Shown here piece after piece: positions 3,892 through 20,861 of a stretch of 64,000 bases of DNA (within the stretch, counting starts at the first letter, position 1; the number at the start of each line of letters is the position of its first letter). The DNA is from Planctomycetota bacterium (GTDB taxonomy: Bacteria; Planctomycetota; UBA1135; GCA-002686595). Below the pieces are notes generated by a model. The model did not search any database. It was given only the letters and a program-made list of their open reading frames with translations, and was not told the origin of the DNA. Made by a program: the position numbers and the translations under genes. The stretch covers positions 1 through 64,000 of the forward strand of contig JAIOPM010000040.1 of assembly GCA_021413885.1 (NCBI GenBank). Direction: 5' to 3'.

Positions 3892-3960
3892 CGGTTCCCT
3901 AATCGAGCCCCGGGGAACCGGGTTCACCCAAACTCCTCGCGGTCGGTGCGAATCCGACCG
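3892..3960. repeat. Two short inverted repeats in the divergent intergenic region
   Basis: The 237 bases between the repeat protein (minus) and the hydrolase gene (plus) hold two dyads. One pairs 3892-3899 (CGGTTCCC) with 3913-3920 (GGGAACCG) around a 13-base spacer. The other pairs 3940-3946 (CGGTCGG) with 3954-3960 (CCGACCG) around 7 bases. Neither is followed by a T tract, so they are more likely operators or mRNA leader stems than terminators. Function is not established. Confidence 0.4.
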
Positions 3961-3981
3961 GAAGCGAAGGTTACCCGACGG

Positions 3982-4011
3982 TTGAAGTCGCGGGCGCGCT
4001 CGCGGCACAAT
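3982..4011 (+). promoter_or_regulatory. Possible sigma-70-like promoter for the MBL-fold gene
   Basis: TTGAAG (3982-3987) and CACAAT (4006-4011) are separated by 18 bases and lie about 45 bases before the ATG at 4056. The -10 is imperfect. It is the best match in this divergent region. Confidence 0.35.
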
Positions 4012-4055
4012 CGCGCTAAGCCCTCTCCCTTCACACTCTTACTGCAAGGTCCGCC

Positions 4056-4952
4056 ATGCTCTCGGCCACGCCCCAACGTCTGATCTTCGCCGGCTTCACC
4101 AGCGTCTTCGCCGCCGGCGTCTGGTTCGCGGGTCCGGCGGGCACCGTTGAGCAAGCGCAAGAGGTCCAGGTCCACGCGGTCGCGGGCACCGTGTCGTGGC
4201 TCGAAGGCAGCGGCGGCAACGTCGGCGTCTGCGCTGGGCCGGACGGCGTGCTCGTGATCGACGACCAGATGAAGCCGATCGAGCCCAAGCTCGTCGCCGC
4301 GATCGAGTCGATCTCGAAGGCGCCGTGGCGCTTCGTCCTGAACACGCACTTCCACGGCGACCACACCGGCAACAACGCGACGTTCGGTCTGCGCGCTCCG
4401 ATCGTCGCGCAAGCGAACGTGCGCACGCGCCTGCTCGACGACAAGGGCAAGAACGGAGCGATGGCCGCGTCCGGTCTGCCGGTGGTGACGTTCGAGGACG
4501 GGCTCGAGCTCCATCTCAACGGCGAGGACATCCGCGTCAAGCACTACCCGCACGCGCACACCGACGGCGACAGCGTCGTCTTCTTCGCGAAGGCCAACGT
4601 CGTGCACATGGGCGATCTCTTCTTCGCCGAGCGCTTTCCGTTCGTCGACCTCGACGGCGGCGGCAGCGTGCGCGGTTTGATCGCGGCGGTCGACGAGATC
4701 CTGAAGACGTTGCCCGACGACGTGAAGATCATCGCGGGTCACGGGCCGCAGTCGACGAAGGTGGAGCTCGCGGCCTACCGCGACATGTTGGTCGACTCGG
4801 TCAAGTTGGTCGGCGACGCGCAACGCGCCGGCAAGACGCTCGCGCAGATGAAGCAGGACAAGGTGCTGTCGAAGTACTCGTCGCTCGCGTGGCAGTTCAT
4901 CAGCGAGGACACGTTCCTCGAGACGATCGCGCGCGAACTCGGCGTCAAGTAG
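4056..4952 (+). CDS. Exported MBL-fold metallo-hydrolase
   Basis: This 298-residue protein has an N-terminal hydrophobic segment (LIFAGFTSVFAAGVWFAG), probably a signal peptide or anchor. The metallo-beta-lactamase fold follows: the zinc motif HFHGDH at residues 98-103, a later His in PHAHTDGDS, the bridging Asp in HMGDLFFAERFPF and the last His in AGHGP. All expected ligands of a binuclear zinc site are present. The arrangement resembles the 'cyclase' or quinoprotein-relay-like subgroup of periplasmic MBL proteins rather than proven beta-lactamases, and the substrate is unknown. The gene stands alone, divergent from the repeat protein and convergent with the DUF1080 operon. No strong ribosome binding site is seen. 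Confidence 0.85.
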   Translation: MLSATPQRLIFAGFTSVFAAGVWFAGPAGTVEQAQEVQVHAVAGTVSWLEGSGGNVGVCAGPDGVLVIDDQMKPIEPKLVAAIESISKAPWRFVLNTHFHGDHTGNNATFGLRAPIVAQANVRTRLLDDKGKNGAMAASGLPVVTFEDGLELHLNGEDIRVKHYPHAHTDGDSVVFFAKANVVHMGDLFFAERFPFVDLDGGGSVRGLIAAVDEILKTLPDDVKIIAGHGPQSTKVELAAYRDMLVDSVKLVGDAQRAGKTLAQMKQDKVLSKYSSLAWQFISEDTFLETIARELGVK

Positions 4953-4981
4953 CGCGGCGTTCGAAGATCAGCACGCAACGC

Positions 4982-5012
4982 GCGACCCACGCAGCGCTGT
5001 AGCGCGGGTCGC
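4982..5012. terminator. GC-rich hairpin between convergent genes, possible bidirectional terminator
   Basis: GCGACCCACGC (4982-4992) pairs with GCGCGGGTCGC (5002-5012) with one G-U pair around a 9-base loop. It fills the gap right up to the stop codon of the minus-strand gene at 5013. There is no T run on either side, so intrinsic termination is uncertain. Confidence 0.35.
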
Positions 5013-7088
5013 TCATCGCGCGATCGGGCGCACCTTGACGTTCTTGAACCTGACGCGATCGCCGTGGTTCTGGAGTGCGATGCGTCCGGTCTTCGCGAGG
5101 CCGTAGTCGGGCATCGCGGCAAACTTGCTGGCGGCGACACGCGCGCGCCAGTCGTCGCTCCAGAGCTCGTACTCGCACTGCTTCTCGCCGTTCAACCAGT
5201 GCTCGACGTGGGCGCCGTCGACCAAGAGGTTCACGTGATTCCACGCACCGATCGGTCGCGTGTCGTCGAACTCCGGTGCGTTGAGCGCGTAGTTCGAGCC
5301 CGCCGACGTCAACGAGTTCTGTCCGTCAGGGTGTTCCTGGTTGTCGAGGATCTGCATCTCCGGCCCGGTGCGCCACACCGCGTCGAAGCCGTCGACGACG
5401 TGGAAGAGGATCCCGCTGTTGCCGCCCGACCCGATGCGCCAGTCGAGTTCGAGCTCGAAACTCGCGAACTCTTCCTCGGTGACGAGATCACCTCCGTCGC
5501 CGACGCGAACGAGCTCTCCGTTCTCCGCCGCCCAACCTTCGACAGGCCCGTCCTTGCCGTAGTTCCTCCAGCCCGCCGTGCTCACGCCGTCGAAGAGCAA
5601 TCGCCAGCCGCCGGCGTGCTCCGCTTCACTGAGCGCATTGCGAATGCCGGTCGGCATCGGACGCCGCTCGAAGCGTAGGAGCTCGGCGCCGACTTGCGTC
5701 CGTACACGCCGGATCGACAACGGGTTGAACCACAACGAATGATCGAAGTCTCCGAGCATGTAGGCCTTGCACTGCGCGCCGTCCGGGACGCCGGGCTCGT
5801 TCGCAAGGAACACACTGCGACGATCGTCCGCAACGGACACCCAATCGGGCCATCTCACGCCGTCGTTCTCGACGACCGCCCAGTACTCACGCTCCCACCC
5901 TTGATCGTTCGCGAGTGGTTCGGAGAGTTGGAGCTCGATCCCGTTCGCGAAGCTGCGCGTGCCCCGCACCGCACTGACGCCGGGAGTCGGGCGCACGATC
6001 GCGAGGTTCGACGCCGCGGCATCGAGGAACGCGAACTCGCCGCCGACGGTCGCGGCGCAGAACTTCGCGTCGGAGTCGATGCTCCCCGCGTATTGCAGGG
6101 TGACGTCGCAGCCCGACGGAGAACTCTGCACCGCCACGCGCGCGAGCTGACGATGCTCCCAAGCGATCAGATAGCCGGCCGACGCATCCGTCGATTCCGT
6201 GCGCGCCAGCACCGCCGAATCAGGCGTCGCTTGGAAGAGTTGCGAACTCCAGGTGCGCTCGGGAACGGTGCCGATCCAGTGGACGCGGTTCCCAGCTTCA
6301 TCGGCATCCGACAGGACGAGGAACGCGCCGTCGAATCCGGGAGCGACGCGCGCCTTCCGCGCGCCGCGCAGGTCGTGGATCGTCGTGCGTCCGTCGGTGA
6401 GGGAACCGACGACGGCGAGCGAGCTCCCGTCGGTGTCGAAGGTCGCCGCGAAAAGACCGCGATCGACGGCGAGATCGCGCGGCTTCGAGAACTCGCGGCC
6501 CGCGAGCTCGGCGACGACGCGGTAGTCGTCGGCAACGTCATCGCCGTCGCGGTCGACGAGTTCGGTCAGCTCGCCGCGTTGGAGCACGAAGATGCGGCCG
6601 CCGTCCGCCACGATCGCGCTCGGATGATCGAGGCCGGAAGCGAAGACTCGCGGCTCGGCGTGGACGATGCCCGCGGGCGCGACGAGCCAGACCGACGCGC
6701 GGGCTCCGCCGGATGCGACGAGCCAACGTCCGTTGGAGTACGGCGCGAAGCCGACGACGTCGTTCGGGAGACCCTCGAGCCGCTGATGTTCGATGGTCAA
6801 CGCGGGATCGAGCGACGGCGGCATCGTCGGCGGCTTGCGCGGCGTCAAGCGTCGTGGCGCGACGGGCGCGATCGGGACTTCGACCTTCGCGCGCTCGGCG
6901 TGCGTCGCGGGCTCGGGAACGTTCGGCTTCGTTTCGCCGACCGGAGCTTCGGCGCTCGGCGCGGCGGCGGAGGTCGGAGCTGCGACCGCGGCATCCGCGA
7001 CGGGCGACGCGTTCGACGCCTGCGGCGTTCCGCAACTCGCCGCGCAGACGACGATCGCTGCGAACGACAACACACCGCGCGTCTTCAT
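5013..7088 (-). CDS. Lipoprotein with beta-propeller and C-terminal DUF1080 (3-keto-disaccharide hydrolase-type) domain
   Basis: About 691 residues from the ATG at 7088, which overlaps the upstream stop as ATGA; the open frame upstream of it is Arg-rich and not coding. The N-terminus MKTRGVLSFAAIVVCAASC is a lipoprotein-type signal with Cys19, followed by an Ala/Pro-rich linker. Residues of roughly 90-430 look like a propeller of the kind found in planctomycete dehydrogenase-like proteins (LPNDVVGFAPYSNGRWLVASGG; ELVDRDGDDVADDYRVV). The last 200 residues, from GWRLLFDGVSTAGWRNYG to RIALQNHGDRVRFKNVKVRP, are a DUF1080 domain. Members of that family cleave glycosides oxidised at C3 to 3-keto sugars. 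With the oxidoreductase and isomerase genes of the same operon, this suggests a surface or periplasmic step on a keto-sugar substrate. The fold calls are good, the substrate is inferred. Confidence 0.85.
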   Translation of the reverse strand: MKTRGVLSFAAIVVCAASCGTPQASNASPVADAAVAAPTSAAAPSAEAPVGETKPNVPEPATHAERAKVEVPIAPVAPRRLTPRKPPTMPPSLDPALTIEHQRLEGLPNDVVGFAPYSNGRWLVASGGARASVWLVAPAGIVHAEPRVFASGLDHPSAIVADGGRIFVLQRGELTELVDRDGDDVADDYRVVAELAGREFSKPRDLAVDRGLFAATFDTDGSSLAVVGSLTDGRTTIHDLRGARKARVAPGFDGAFLVLSDADEAGNRVHWIGTVPERTWSSQLFQATPDSAVLARTESTDASAGYLIAWEHRQLARVAVQSSPSGCDVTLQYAGSIDSDAKFCAATVGGEFAFLDAAASNLAIVRPTPGVSAVRGTRSFANGIELQLSEPLANDQGWEREYWAVVENDGVRWPDWVSVADDRRSVFLANEPGVPDGAQCKAYMLGDFDHSLWFNPLSIRRVRTQVGAELLRFERRPMPTGIRNALSEAEHAGGWRLLFDGVSTAGWRNYGKDGPVEGWAAENGELVRVGDGGDLVTEEEFASFELELDWRIGSGGNSGILFHVVDGFDAVWRTGPEMQILDNQEHPDGQNSLTSAGSNYALNAPEFDDTRPIGAWNHVNLLVDGAHVEHWLNGEKQCEYELWSDDWRARVAASKFAAMPDYGLAKTGRIALQNHGDRVRFKNVKVRPIAR

Positions 7089-19125: not shown

Positions 19126-20427
19126 ATGCAAGATCGCCGCAGGTTCCTGGGCTCCCTCGTCTATCCCGCGGCGCTCGCCGTCGCGCCGGCCTGCTTCACG
19201 TCGCTCGGCAGCGAGCGCGTGCGCAAGAGCTTCGCCGACGCGCACGCGCTCGACCCCGAGGACGTCGCGCGCGACGAGTCGCGTTGGTTCGAGGTGCAGC
19301 AAGCGTTCACGTGCGATCGCAGCGCGGTCAACCTGAACAACGGCGGCGTGTGTCCCGCGCCTGCGGTCGTGCAGGAAGCGATGAAGCGCAACCTCGACTT
19401 CTCGAACGGCTTGCCCGCGCATCGGTTGTGGCAAGTGCTCGAGCCGCAGAAGGAGTCGGTGCGCGCCGGCCTGGCGCGTCTCTTCGGTTGCGACGGCGAG
19501 GAAGTCGCGATCACGCGCAATGCGTCGGAGAGTCTGCAGATCTGTCAGCTCGGGATCGATCTCCAGCGCGGCGATGAAGTGCTGACCACCGATCAGGACT
19601 ACCCGCGCATGCTGACGACGTTCGAGCAGCGCGCGCGCCGCGAAGGCATCGTGCTGAAGAAGTTCAAGCTGCCGGTGCCGTGCGAGGACCTCGGCGCGAT
19701 CGTGCGGCTCTACGAGGAGAACCTCACTCCGCGCACGAAGATGATCCTGATGTGTCAGATCGTGAACATCAGCGGTCAGAAGATGCCGGTGAAGGAAGTC
19801 GTGGTACTCGCGCGCAAGCGTTCGATCCCGGTCGTCGTCGACGGAGCCCACGGCTTCGCGAACGTCGACGCGAAGCATGCCGAGCTCGACTGCGACTACT
19901 ACGGAACGAGCTTGCACAAGTGGCTCTTCGCGCCGCACGGCACCGGGATGCTCTACGTGCGCCGCGACAAGGTCCGCGGTCTGTGGCCGTTGATGGCGGC
20001 GACCGAGAAGCAGGACGACGACGTCCGCAAGTTCGAGGAGATCGGCACGCATCCCGCGGCGAACTTCCTCGCGATCGGCGAGGCGCTCGCGTTCCACCAC
20101 GGCATCGGCGCGGCGAACAAGGAAGCGCGGTTGCGTTATTTGCGCGAGTACTGGGCGAAGCGTTTGCTCGCCAACGACCGCGTGCGCCTGAACACGAGTT
20201 TGAAGAAGGAGTTCTCCGGCACGTCGGGCAACGTGCGCGTCGAAGGGCTCGACACCAAGGCGCTCGCGTCGTGGCTGTGGGAACAGCACAAGATCCTGAC
20301 CGTCGCGATCGTGCACGAAGACTTCAACGGCTTGCGCGTCACGCCGTCGGTGCACAACACGCTGGAGGAGCTCGATCGCTTCTGCGAAGCGATCGAGACG
20401 GCGATGGAGAAGGGCATCAAGGCGTGA
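19126..20427 (+). CDS. Tat-exported class V aminotransferase-fold PLP enzyme
   Basis: 433 residues with GGAGG 8 bases before the ATG. The N-terminus MQDRRRFLGSLVYPAALAVA is a Tat-type signal (RRRFLG plus hydrophobic stretch), so a folded, cofactor-loaded enzyme would be exported. The body matches the isopenicillin-N-epimerase/cysteine-desulfurase-like group: NLNNGGVCPAP, TRNASESLQI, the PLP Asp in VVVDGAHGFANVD and the Schiff-base Lys265 in TSLHKWLFAPHGTG. The reaction could be transamination, racemisation/epimerisation, beta-elimination or C-S cleavage; sequence alone does not decide. The following gene overlaps as GTGA and encodes a lipoprotein RidA, which removes the reactive enamines PLP enzymes release. 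That pairing argues for an eliminating or deaminating reaction in the periplasm. Confidence 0.85.
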   Translation: MQDRRRFLGSLVYPAALAVAPACFTSLGSERVRKSFADAHALDPEDVARDESRWFEVQQAFTCDRSAVNLNNGGVCPAPAVVQEAMKRNLDFSNGLPAHRLWQVLEPQKESVRAGLARLFGCDGEEVAITRNASESLQICQLGIDLQRGDEVLTTDQDYPRMLTTFEQRARREGIVLKKFKLPVPCEDLGAIVRLYEENLTPRTKMILMCQIVNISGQKMPVKEVVVLARKRSIPVVVDGAHGFANVDAKHAELDCDYYGTSLHKWLFAPHGTGMLYVRRDKVRGLWPLMAATEKQDDDVRKFEEIGTHPAANFLAIGEALAFHHGIGAANKEARLRYLREYWAKRLLANDRVRLNTSLKKEFSGTSGNVRVEGLDTKALASWLWEQHKILTVAIVHEDFNGLRVTPSVHNTLEELDRFCEAIETAMEKGIKA

Positions 20428-20861
20428 GGGCCCTTGCTCTCGCGCTGTGCCTCGTCGCCGGTTGCGCGACGCACGCCCGCGTCGCGGTGGAATCGCCCGC
20501 CGCGCCGCGTCCGATCGGACCGTACTCGCAAGCGATCCGCGTCGGCGACCAGATCTGGTGCGCGGGCCAACTCGGCGTCGATCCGGCGAGCGGCGAGCTC
20601 GTCCTGGGCGGCATCGTCGCCGAAACGCGCCGCGCGTTCGAGAACGTCGAAGCCGTACTCGCCGCCGCCGGCGCGACGCGCGACGACATCGTCGCGGTCA
20701 ACGCGTACCTGACCGACCTCGCCGAGTTCGCCGACTTCAACGCCGAGTTCGCGAAGCACGTCTCGACTCCGCCGCCGGCGCGCGCGACGGTGCAGGTCGC
20801 GAAGCTCCCGAAGAACGCGCGCGTCGAACTCCAGGTCGTCGCCGTGCGAGCCAAACGCTAG
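20424..20861 (+). CDS. Lipoprotein RidA-family enamine/imine deaminase
   Basis: 145 residues from a GTG at 20424 that overlaps the upstream stop (GTGA). The N-terminus MRALALALCLVAGC is a lipoprotein signal with lipobox LVAGC (Cys14). The rest is a complete RidA/YjgF trimer subunit: RPIGPYSQAIRVGDQIWCAG, ENVEAVLAAAGATRDDIVAV and PARATVQVAKLPKNARVELQ. Arg120 and Glu135 sit at the positions of the catalytic Arg105 and Glu120 of Escherichia coli RidA. Known RidA proteins hydrolyse 2-aminoacrylate and related enamines/imines and are normally cytosolic and without a signal peptide. Here it should be tethered outside the cytoplasmic membrane next to the exported PLP enzyme. Its stop overlaps the convergent DUF2752 gene as CTAG. 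Confidence 0.88.
   Translation: MRALALALCLVAGCATHARVAVESPAAPRPIGPYSQAIRVGDQIWCAGQLGVDPASGELVLGGIVAETRRAFENVEAVLAAAGATRDDIVAVNAYLTDLAEFADFNAEFAKHVSTPPPARATVQVAKLPKNARVELQVVAVRAKR

Follow-up and report, generated by a model that had tools for sequence, protein, structure and literature searches.

An exported PvdN-related PLP enzyme and a lipoprotein RidA as a possible extracytoplasmic pair in Planctomycetota and other phyla

Introduction

RidA is regarded as a guard that works inside cells (or organelles). 2-Aminoacrylate inactivates PLP enzymes through a covalent adduct with PLP, and enamines of this kind are hydrolysed more rapidly by RidA than by water (PMC9127364). The RidA residue equivalent to Arg105/107 binds carboxylate, and in other bacteria the RidA genes cluster with PLP enzymes that form 2-aminoacrylate (PMC4433059). 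The members of the RidA/YjgF/UK114 family of enamine/imine deaminases (TIGR00004; PMC4433059) that are described in the literature found are cytosolic, plastidial or mitochondrial. The yeast mitochondrial Mmf1p (PMC5829821) and the plant plastid RidA are compartment-targeted, but they serve eukaryotic organelles, and their genes are not coupled to that of an exported PLP enzyme. No exported, periplasmic or lipoprotein RidA of bacteria was found in the literature searched, which lay mostly outside subscription journals and preprints.

Exported PLP enzymes are known from Pseudomonas. PvdN (5i90, 5hh9), which acts in pyoverdine maturation on a siderophore side chain, is exported folded by the Tat pathway and must bind PLP in the cytoplasm for export (PMC6206403). 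The periplasmic transaminase A, PtaA, is a second such enzyme, which likewise leaves through Tat carrying its cofactor. No RidA partner of either enzyme is described in the review PMC6206403.

The window analysed here is the whole 64,000-nucleotide stretch of planctomycetotal DNA. A preliminary description of it proposed a Tat-exported PLP enzyme coupled to a lipoprotein RidA and stated that no system of this kind had been described. Since PvdN and PtaA are exported (PMC6206403), that statement is too wide as worded. The comparisons below point to an undescribed extracytoplasmic version of a chemistry so far known inside cells. The enzyme of the window resembles PvdN in its class V fold, Tat signal and Schiff-base motif, and resembles PtaA as a Tat-type PLP enzyme, whereas PtaA is a transaminase. 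The RidA of the window resembles the described family in its retained Arg and Glu and in its clustering with a PLP enzyme gene, and differs from it in carrying a lipoprotein signal.

The gene pair

The two open reading frames were recovered as first described, with the start of the RidA gene overlapping the stop of the PLP enzyme gene by 4 nt (GTGA), and the positions given for Lys265 of the enzyme and for Arg120, Glu135 and the lipobox Cys14 of RidA are correct (Table 1). In the window, the pair is preceded by trpG/trpD-like genes and followed by a gene on the opposite strand; no adjoining pyoverdine-type genes were noticed in the inspected flanks. An all-against-all comparison of the open reading frames of ~100 loci, which separated real genes from shadow frames incompletely, yielded no third conserved member of the unit, the matches being chiefly shadow frames of the PLP gene and scattered genes in 5–9 loci.

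Table 1 Positions of the features of the gene pair in the window
Feature	Position	Strand	Basis
Class V (fold type I) PLP enzyme, PvdN-related, 433 aa, ATG start	19126..20427	+	Aminotran_5; PvdN as best match; AlphaFold2 model
Tat signal MQDRRRFLGSLVYPAALAVAPAC	19126..19194	+	Twin Arg codons 19135-19140; R4/R5 invariant in 26/26; low-pLDDT segment 9-25
Schiff-base Lys265 (SLHKW)	19918..19920	+	Invariant in alignment; aligns with HKW motif of PvdN
Shine-Dalgarno-like GGAGAAGG	20406..20413	+	10 nt before the RidA GTG; sequence
RidA-family protein with lipoprotein signal, 145 aa, GTG start	20424..20861	+	TIGR00004, PF01042
Lipoprotein signal peptide VRALALALCLVAGC	20424..20465	+	Lipobox Cys14, codon 20463-20465
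RidA Arg120	20781..20783	+	Equivalent of E. coli TdcF Arg105 / human Arg107; kept in RidA alignment
RidA Glu135	20826..20828	+	Equivalent of the RidA-family C-terminal Glu; kept in RidA alignment

The putatively exported PLP enzyme

The first protein matches Pfam Aminotran_5 with an E-value of 1.5e-36, and its Lys265 is invariant in the orthologues, in agreement with its initial assignment as a class V PLP enzyme with an intact Schiff-base lysine. PvdN is the closest solved relative both in sequence and in fold. It is the best sequence match in the PDB (8.7e-43, about 29% identity) and the top NCBIfam match (NF051467), in which the score of 177.8 bits stays far below the cut-off of 650. The AlphaFold2 model of the enzyme has a pLDDT of 90.3, and its top fold match in the PDB is the PvdN structure 5i90 (TM 0.80, compared with about 0.75 for the SufS and C-DES folds).

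After PvdN, the solved structure closest in sequence is that of the L-cysteine/cystine lyase C-DES, and the models or structures of SufS and EgtE also rank behind PvdN. Another reading would make the enzyme an exported protein of the cysteine desulfurase type or a C-S lyase of the ergothioneine type, with RidA guarding against a side reaction. SufS/CsdA, C-DES and EgtE share its fold and are known as cytosolic. The persulfide Cys of the desulfurases (SufS/CsdA/IscS) is absent from the enzyme, the Cys residues of which are located at positions 23, 63, 76, 122, 140, 186, 210, 256 and 420, leaving none between 257 and 419 and none in the stretch before Arg404 in which the desulfurases have it. 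The scores are also far under the cut-offs of the SufS profile and of EgtE (76.8 bits vs. 400 for the latter). This reading is thus quite improbable, although the 2-aminoacrylate that a C-S lyase would set free is compatible with the reading that we favour below.

Arg404 is invariant in the alignment of 26 orthologues and presumably aligns with the carboxylate-binding Arg of the PLP enzyme superfamily, which suggests an amino-acid-like substrate.

The N-terminus of the enzyme (MQDRRRFLG...) has a twin-arginine n-region followed by a hydrophobic h-region. Alignment of 26 orthologues from the same order (42–81% identity to the window protein) showed that R4 and R5 are invariant, although the remaining signal varies. 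Of 80 further loci named in a scan of GTDB genomes, 72 also carry RR in their N-terminal stretch, the remainder being truncated, masked or RK/KR. Judged by record titles, the orthologues belong to Planctomycetota, Gemmatimonadota, Rhodothermota, Balneolota, Marinimicrobia, Acidobacteriota, Ignavibacteria, Verrucomicrobia and others. TatC is encoded in the source genome. By these sequence criteria the Tat signal is real, as had been proposed.

In 10 of the 26 orthologues (the window protein, within 19126-19194, and L005, L006, L007, L009, L011, L016, L017, L027 and L029), a Cys in a lipobox-like setting stands behind the RR pair. In the window enzyme it is Cys23 of an APAC motif, which is conserved in its own genus. 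Some of the orthologues, possibly including that of the window, may be Tat lipoproteins.

The predicted lipoprotein RidA

The second protein belongs to Pfam Ribonuc_L-PSP (PF01042, E 2.4e-35), scores 138.4 bits with TIGR00004 (Rid family detoxifying hydrolase), over the cut-off of 106.25, and retains the catalytic-type Arg and Glu. Its signal has an Arg/Lys n-region, an h-region and a lipobox Cys at the end of ...CLVAGC, and is positive by a simple lipoprotein rule that rings falsely in 0.42% of 40,000 random upstream stretches. LspA is encoded in the source genome. The RidAs linked to the enzyme gene elsewhere have signals of their own that differ in sequence and are of the same type, for example VSPATLALWAATLLAGC (G003), MKLALALVLCLGAC (G056), MRLLILLTVLGIIGC (Marinimicrobia, L132) and MKKHILIYPVLLFLIYSC (Rhodohalobacter, L144). 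The signals at the 14 linked loci all end in Cys, that of G015 being weak (LVGALAC) and the RidA of L113 being cut by the contig end. The lipoprotein signal that had been noticed on RidA is, as far as sequence can tell, real: a Shine-Dalgarno motif precedes GTG 20424, and signals of the same type are found on linked RidAs in four phyla.

An alternative start at the in-frame GTG 20487 would give a normal cytosolic RidA N-terminus (MESPAAPRPIGPYSQ...), making the lipoprotein signal an accident of the gene overlap and leaving the PLP enzyme alone exported. An internal ATG also occurs in some unlinked lipoprotein-type RidAs (L039, L041, L042 and L054). However, no Shine-Dalgarno motif was seen before GTG 20487 and no coupled stop precedes it, whereas both precede GTG 20424. 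Several linked RidAs (L076, L132 and L144) have no internal start before the core, and the hydrophobic stretch and terminal Cys are kept in the linked RidAs of other lineages despite their differing sequences. The low false-ring rate of the rule also stands against a cytosolic location, as does the separate cytosolic RidA (L001) already encoded in the genome, one of two further Rid genes without signals (the other is the distant Rid L003). A cytosolic location of the window RidA is therefore very improbable.

The gene of L001 (G000:C27) is located between coaD-like and ychF-like genes.

Recurrence of the linked pair

A RidA gene adjoins the PLP gene in 14 loci of at least four phyla (Planctomycetota, Marinimicrobia, Balneolota and Rhodothermota) in downstream, upstream and divergent arrangements. 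The search for the pair in other Planctomycetota, which the preliminary description had advised, found it in G001, G003, G015 and G056. In the source genome, G001, G003 and G015, that is in all four downstream cases of this phylum, RidA lies downstream with the 4-nt overlap, and in G056 it lies upstream of the PLP gene. In all four Marinimicrobia loci (L129, L132, L133 and L161), RidA lies downstream and its start overlaps the stop of the PLP gene by 1 nt. Three Balneolota-type loci (L140, L144 and L142, the last from a MAG titled Flavobacteriaceae) have RidA downstream at −8 to +42 nt, and in two Rhodothermota (L111 and L113) the genes are divergently transcribed. One locus, L144, belongs to a named strain, Rhodohalobacter sulfatireducens WB101. 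Missing signals and an unconserved pair had been named beforehand as observations that would speak against the proposal; both were looked at, and the signals are present and the pair is conserved.

RidA is non-adjacent in most genomes that carry the PLP enzyme, and the surrounding genes of the window look unrelated to the pair, as expected if the two genes were neighbours by chance and their adjacency had no functional meaning. With ~3 RidA-family genes per genome, chance adjacency is estimated at about 0.1% per locus, compared with the 14 of about 105 loci observed. The several arrangements and phyla, and a co-occurrence that also holds when the genes are unlinked, are further against chance, which is largely refuted as an explanation and extremely improbable.

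In G049 (L077 / L015, G049:C92), a distant signal-less Rid with 28% identity lies directly upstream of the Tat-PLP gene, so that the neighbour there belongs to another Rid subfamily.

Co-occurrence and origin of the lipoprotein-type RidA

Co-occurrence was analysed with the N-termini of nearly all RidA-family genes in 61 relatives, among the matches listed, after four genomes with only a 38–41% relative of the PLP enzyme were set aside. A lipoprotein RidA was called in 19 of the 28 enzyme carriers, compared with 3 of the 29 genomes that lack the enzyme (odds ratio 18, Fisher p 9e-6). With the five linked genomes left out the counts are 14/23 vs. 3/29 (p 2e-4), within one family they are 15/20 vs. 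2/14 (p 0.001), and stratification by genome-size class gives a pooled odds ratio of 25. By the rule, about a third of the enzyme carriers in the order are without a lipoprotein RidA. Among 19 carrier genomes of other phyla, inspected by eye with no control set, one or more RidAs with a signal of the lipoprotein or Sec-like kind were seen in about 15.

On a RecA tree of 47 genomes, drawn without seven genomes in which the RecA motif was unmatched and others without a RecA locus, the enzyme and lipoprotein-RidA traits change 13 and 15 times, respectively. Phylogenetically independent pairs agree in 5.0 and disagree in 0.2 cases on average (median p 0.06), an underpowered test with only 8 pairs.

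A tree of 54 RidAs showed that the lipoprotein RidAs do not form one clade. Those of the own genus, Balneolota, Marinimicrobia and Rhodothermota and at least two unlinked lipoprotein groups stand apart, several of them between cytosolic RidAs. The deep forks are weak and the exact number of gains is not fixed by the tree; a single origin misfits the best tree. The placement of lipoprotein RidAs in several separate lineages indicates that export of RidA was probably gained repeatedly.

A possible reaction outside the cytoplasm

A functional pairing of the PLP enzyme and RidA outside the cytoplasm is very likely. For the chemistry, we favour, with somewhat better than even confidence, a two-gene unit in which the exported enzyme releases an enamine or imine that is hydrolysed by the membrane RidA; the hydrolytic role of RidA itself is given the same modest preference.

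In this scheme the PLP enzyme, by analogy with PvdN, would bind PLP and fold in the cytoplasm and leave through the Tat pathway to which its signal directs it. RidA would be secreted and lipidated at Cys14, as its own signal predicts, and its trimer should then be held at the membrane. The enzyme family and the invariant Arg404 suggest that the alpha-amino and alpha-carboxylate groups of the substrate are free, and a beta-elimination or another deaminating reaction would be the most likely, releasing an enamine or imine such as 2-aminoacrylate. The membrane RidA would hydrolyse this product to a 2-keto acid and ammonia, thus finishing the reaction, and would spare the PLP of the enzyme, presumably irreplaceable after export. 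Presumably neither a pyridoxal kinase nor a PLP pool is at hand outside, so the loss of the cofactor should be permanent. Against this proposal, 2-aminoacrylate also hydrolyses without RidA, with a half-life under 3 min (PMC9127364).

Both proteins may instead be exported in one pathway without such a transfer. The imine on which RidA acts would then come from a different extracytoplasmic enzyme, such as an amine oxidase or dehydrogenase, or RidA would bind a ligand non-catalytically; the PLP enzyme, as a transaminase or a tailoring enzyme of the PvdN type, would set no enamine free. The reaction reported for PvdN, the nearest solved relative, is a decarboxylation in which the amino group is retained (PMC6206403); moreover, three genomes that lack the enzyme have exported RidAs, and in some genomes there are several of them. 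However, the adjacency with overlapping stop and start in two phyla, together with the co-occurrence, favours a direct link, and we regard this alternative as unlikely, though less so than those discussed above.

A broader form of the enamine-releasing scheme can be offered only tentatively, namely that independently lipidated RidAs serve widely as guards that protect the PLP of an exported class V lyase or deaminase and complete the deamination at the membrane. If so, the pair would be the first bacterial Rid system to work outside the cytoplasm, and the repeated evolution of RidA export alongside the enzyme would be explained. If periplasmic enamine chemistry needs a RidA of its own, metabolite-damage control reaches beyond the cytoplasm, and the handful of Pseudomonas PLP enzymes known to be exported would belong to a far larger class. 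The question of how such an enzyme retains a presumably irreplaceable cofactor would then become testable in a two-protein assay, and the linked pair of R. sulfatireducens WB101 makes such a study practical.

Other exported RidA-family proteins

Unlinked RidA-family proteins with lipoprotein or Sec signals are common in the inspected genomes of Planctomycetota, Gemmatimonadota, Marinimicrobia and Ignavibacteria, and several form divergent clades of their own (L090, L099, L102, L210, L218, L222, L225, L233, L237, L254, L317, L323, L324, L334 and others). Three consecutive RidA domains occur in one reading frame in L097 (G049:C81, about 3952-5043) and in L352 (Longimicrobiales, G065). The frame of L097 begins with a Sec-type signal peptide and, since RidA is a homotrimer, looks like a secreted single-chain pseudo-trimer. 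In Rhodohalobacter G073 (contig C50, about 74382), the RidA-family gene L346 has a Tat-like N-terminus, TTRKSAIKSMFSGILAAGAGLFGISQAKA, and another Rid match is located 2 kb away.
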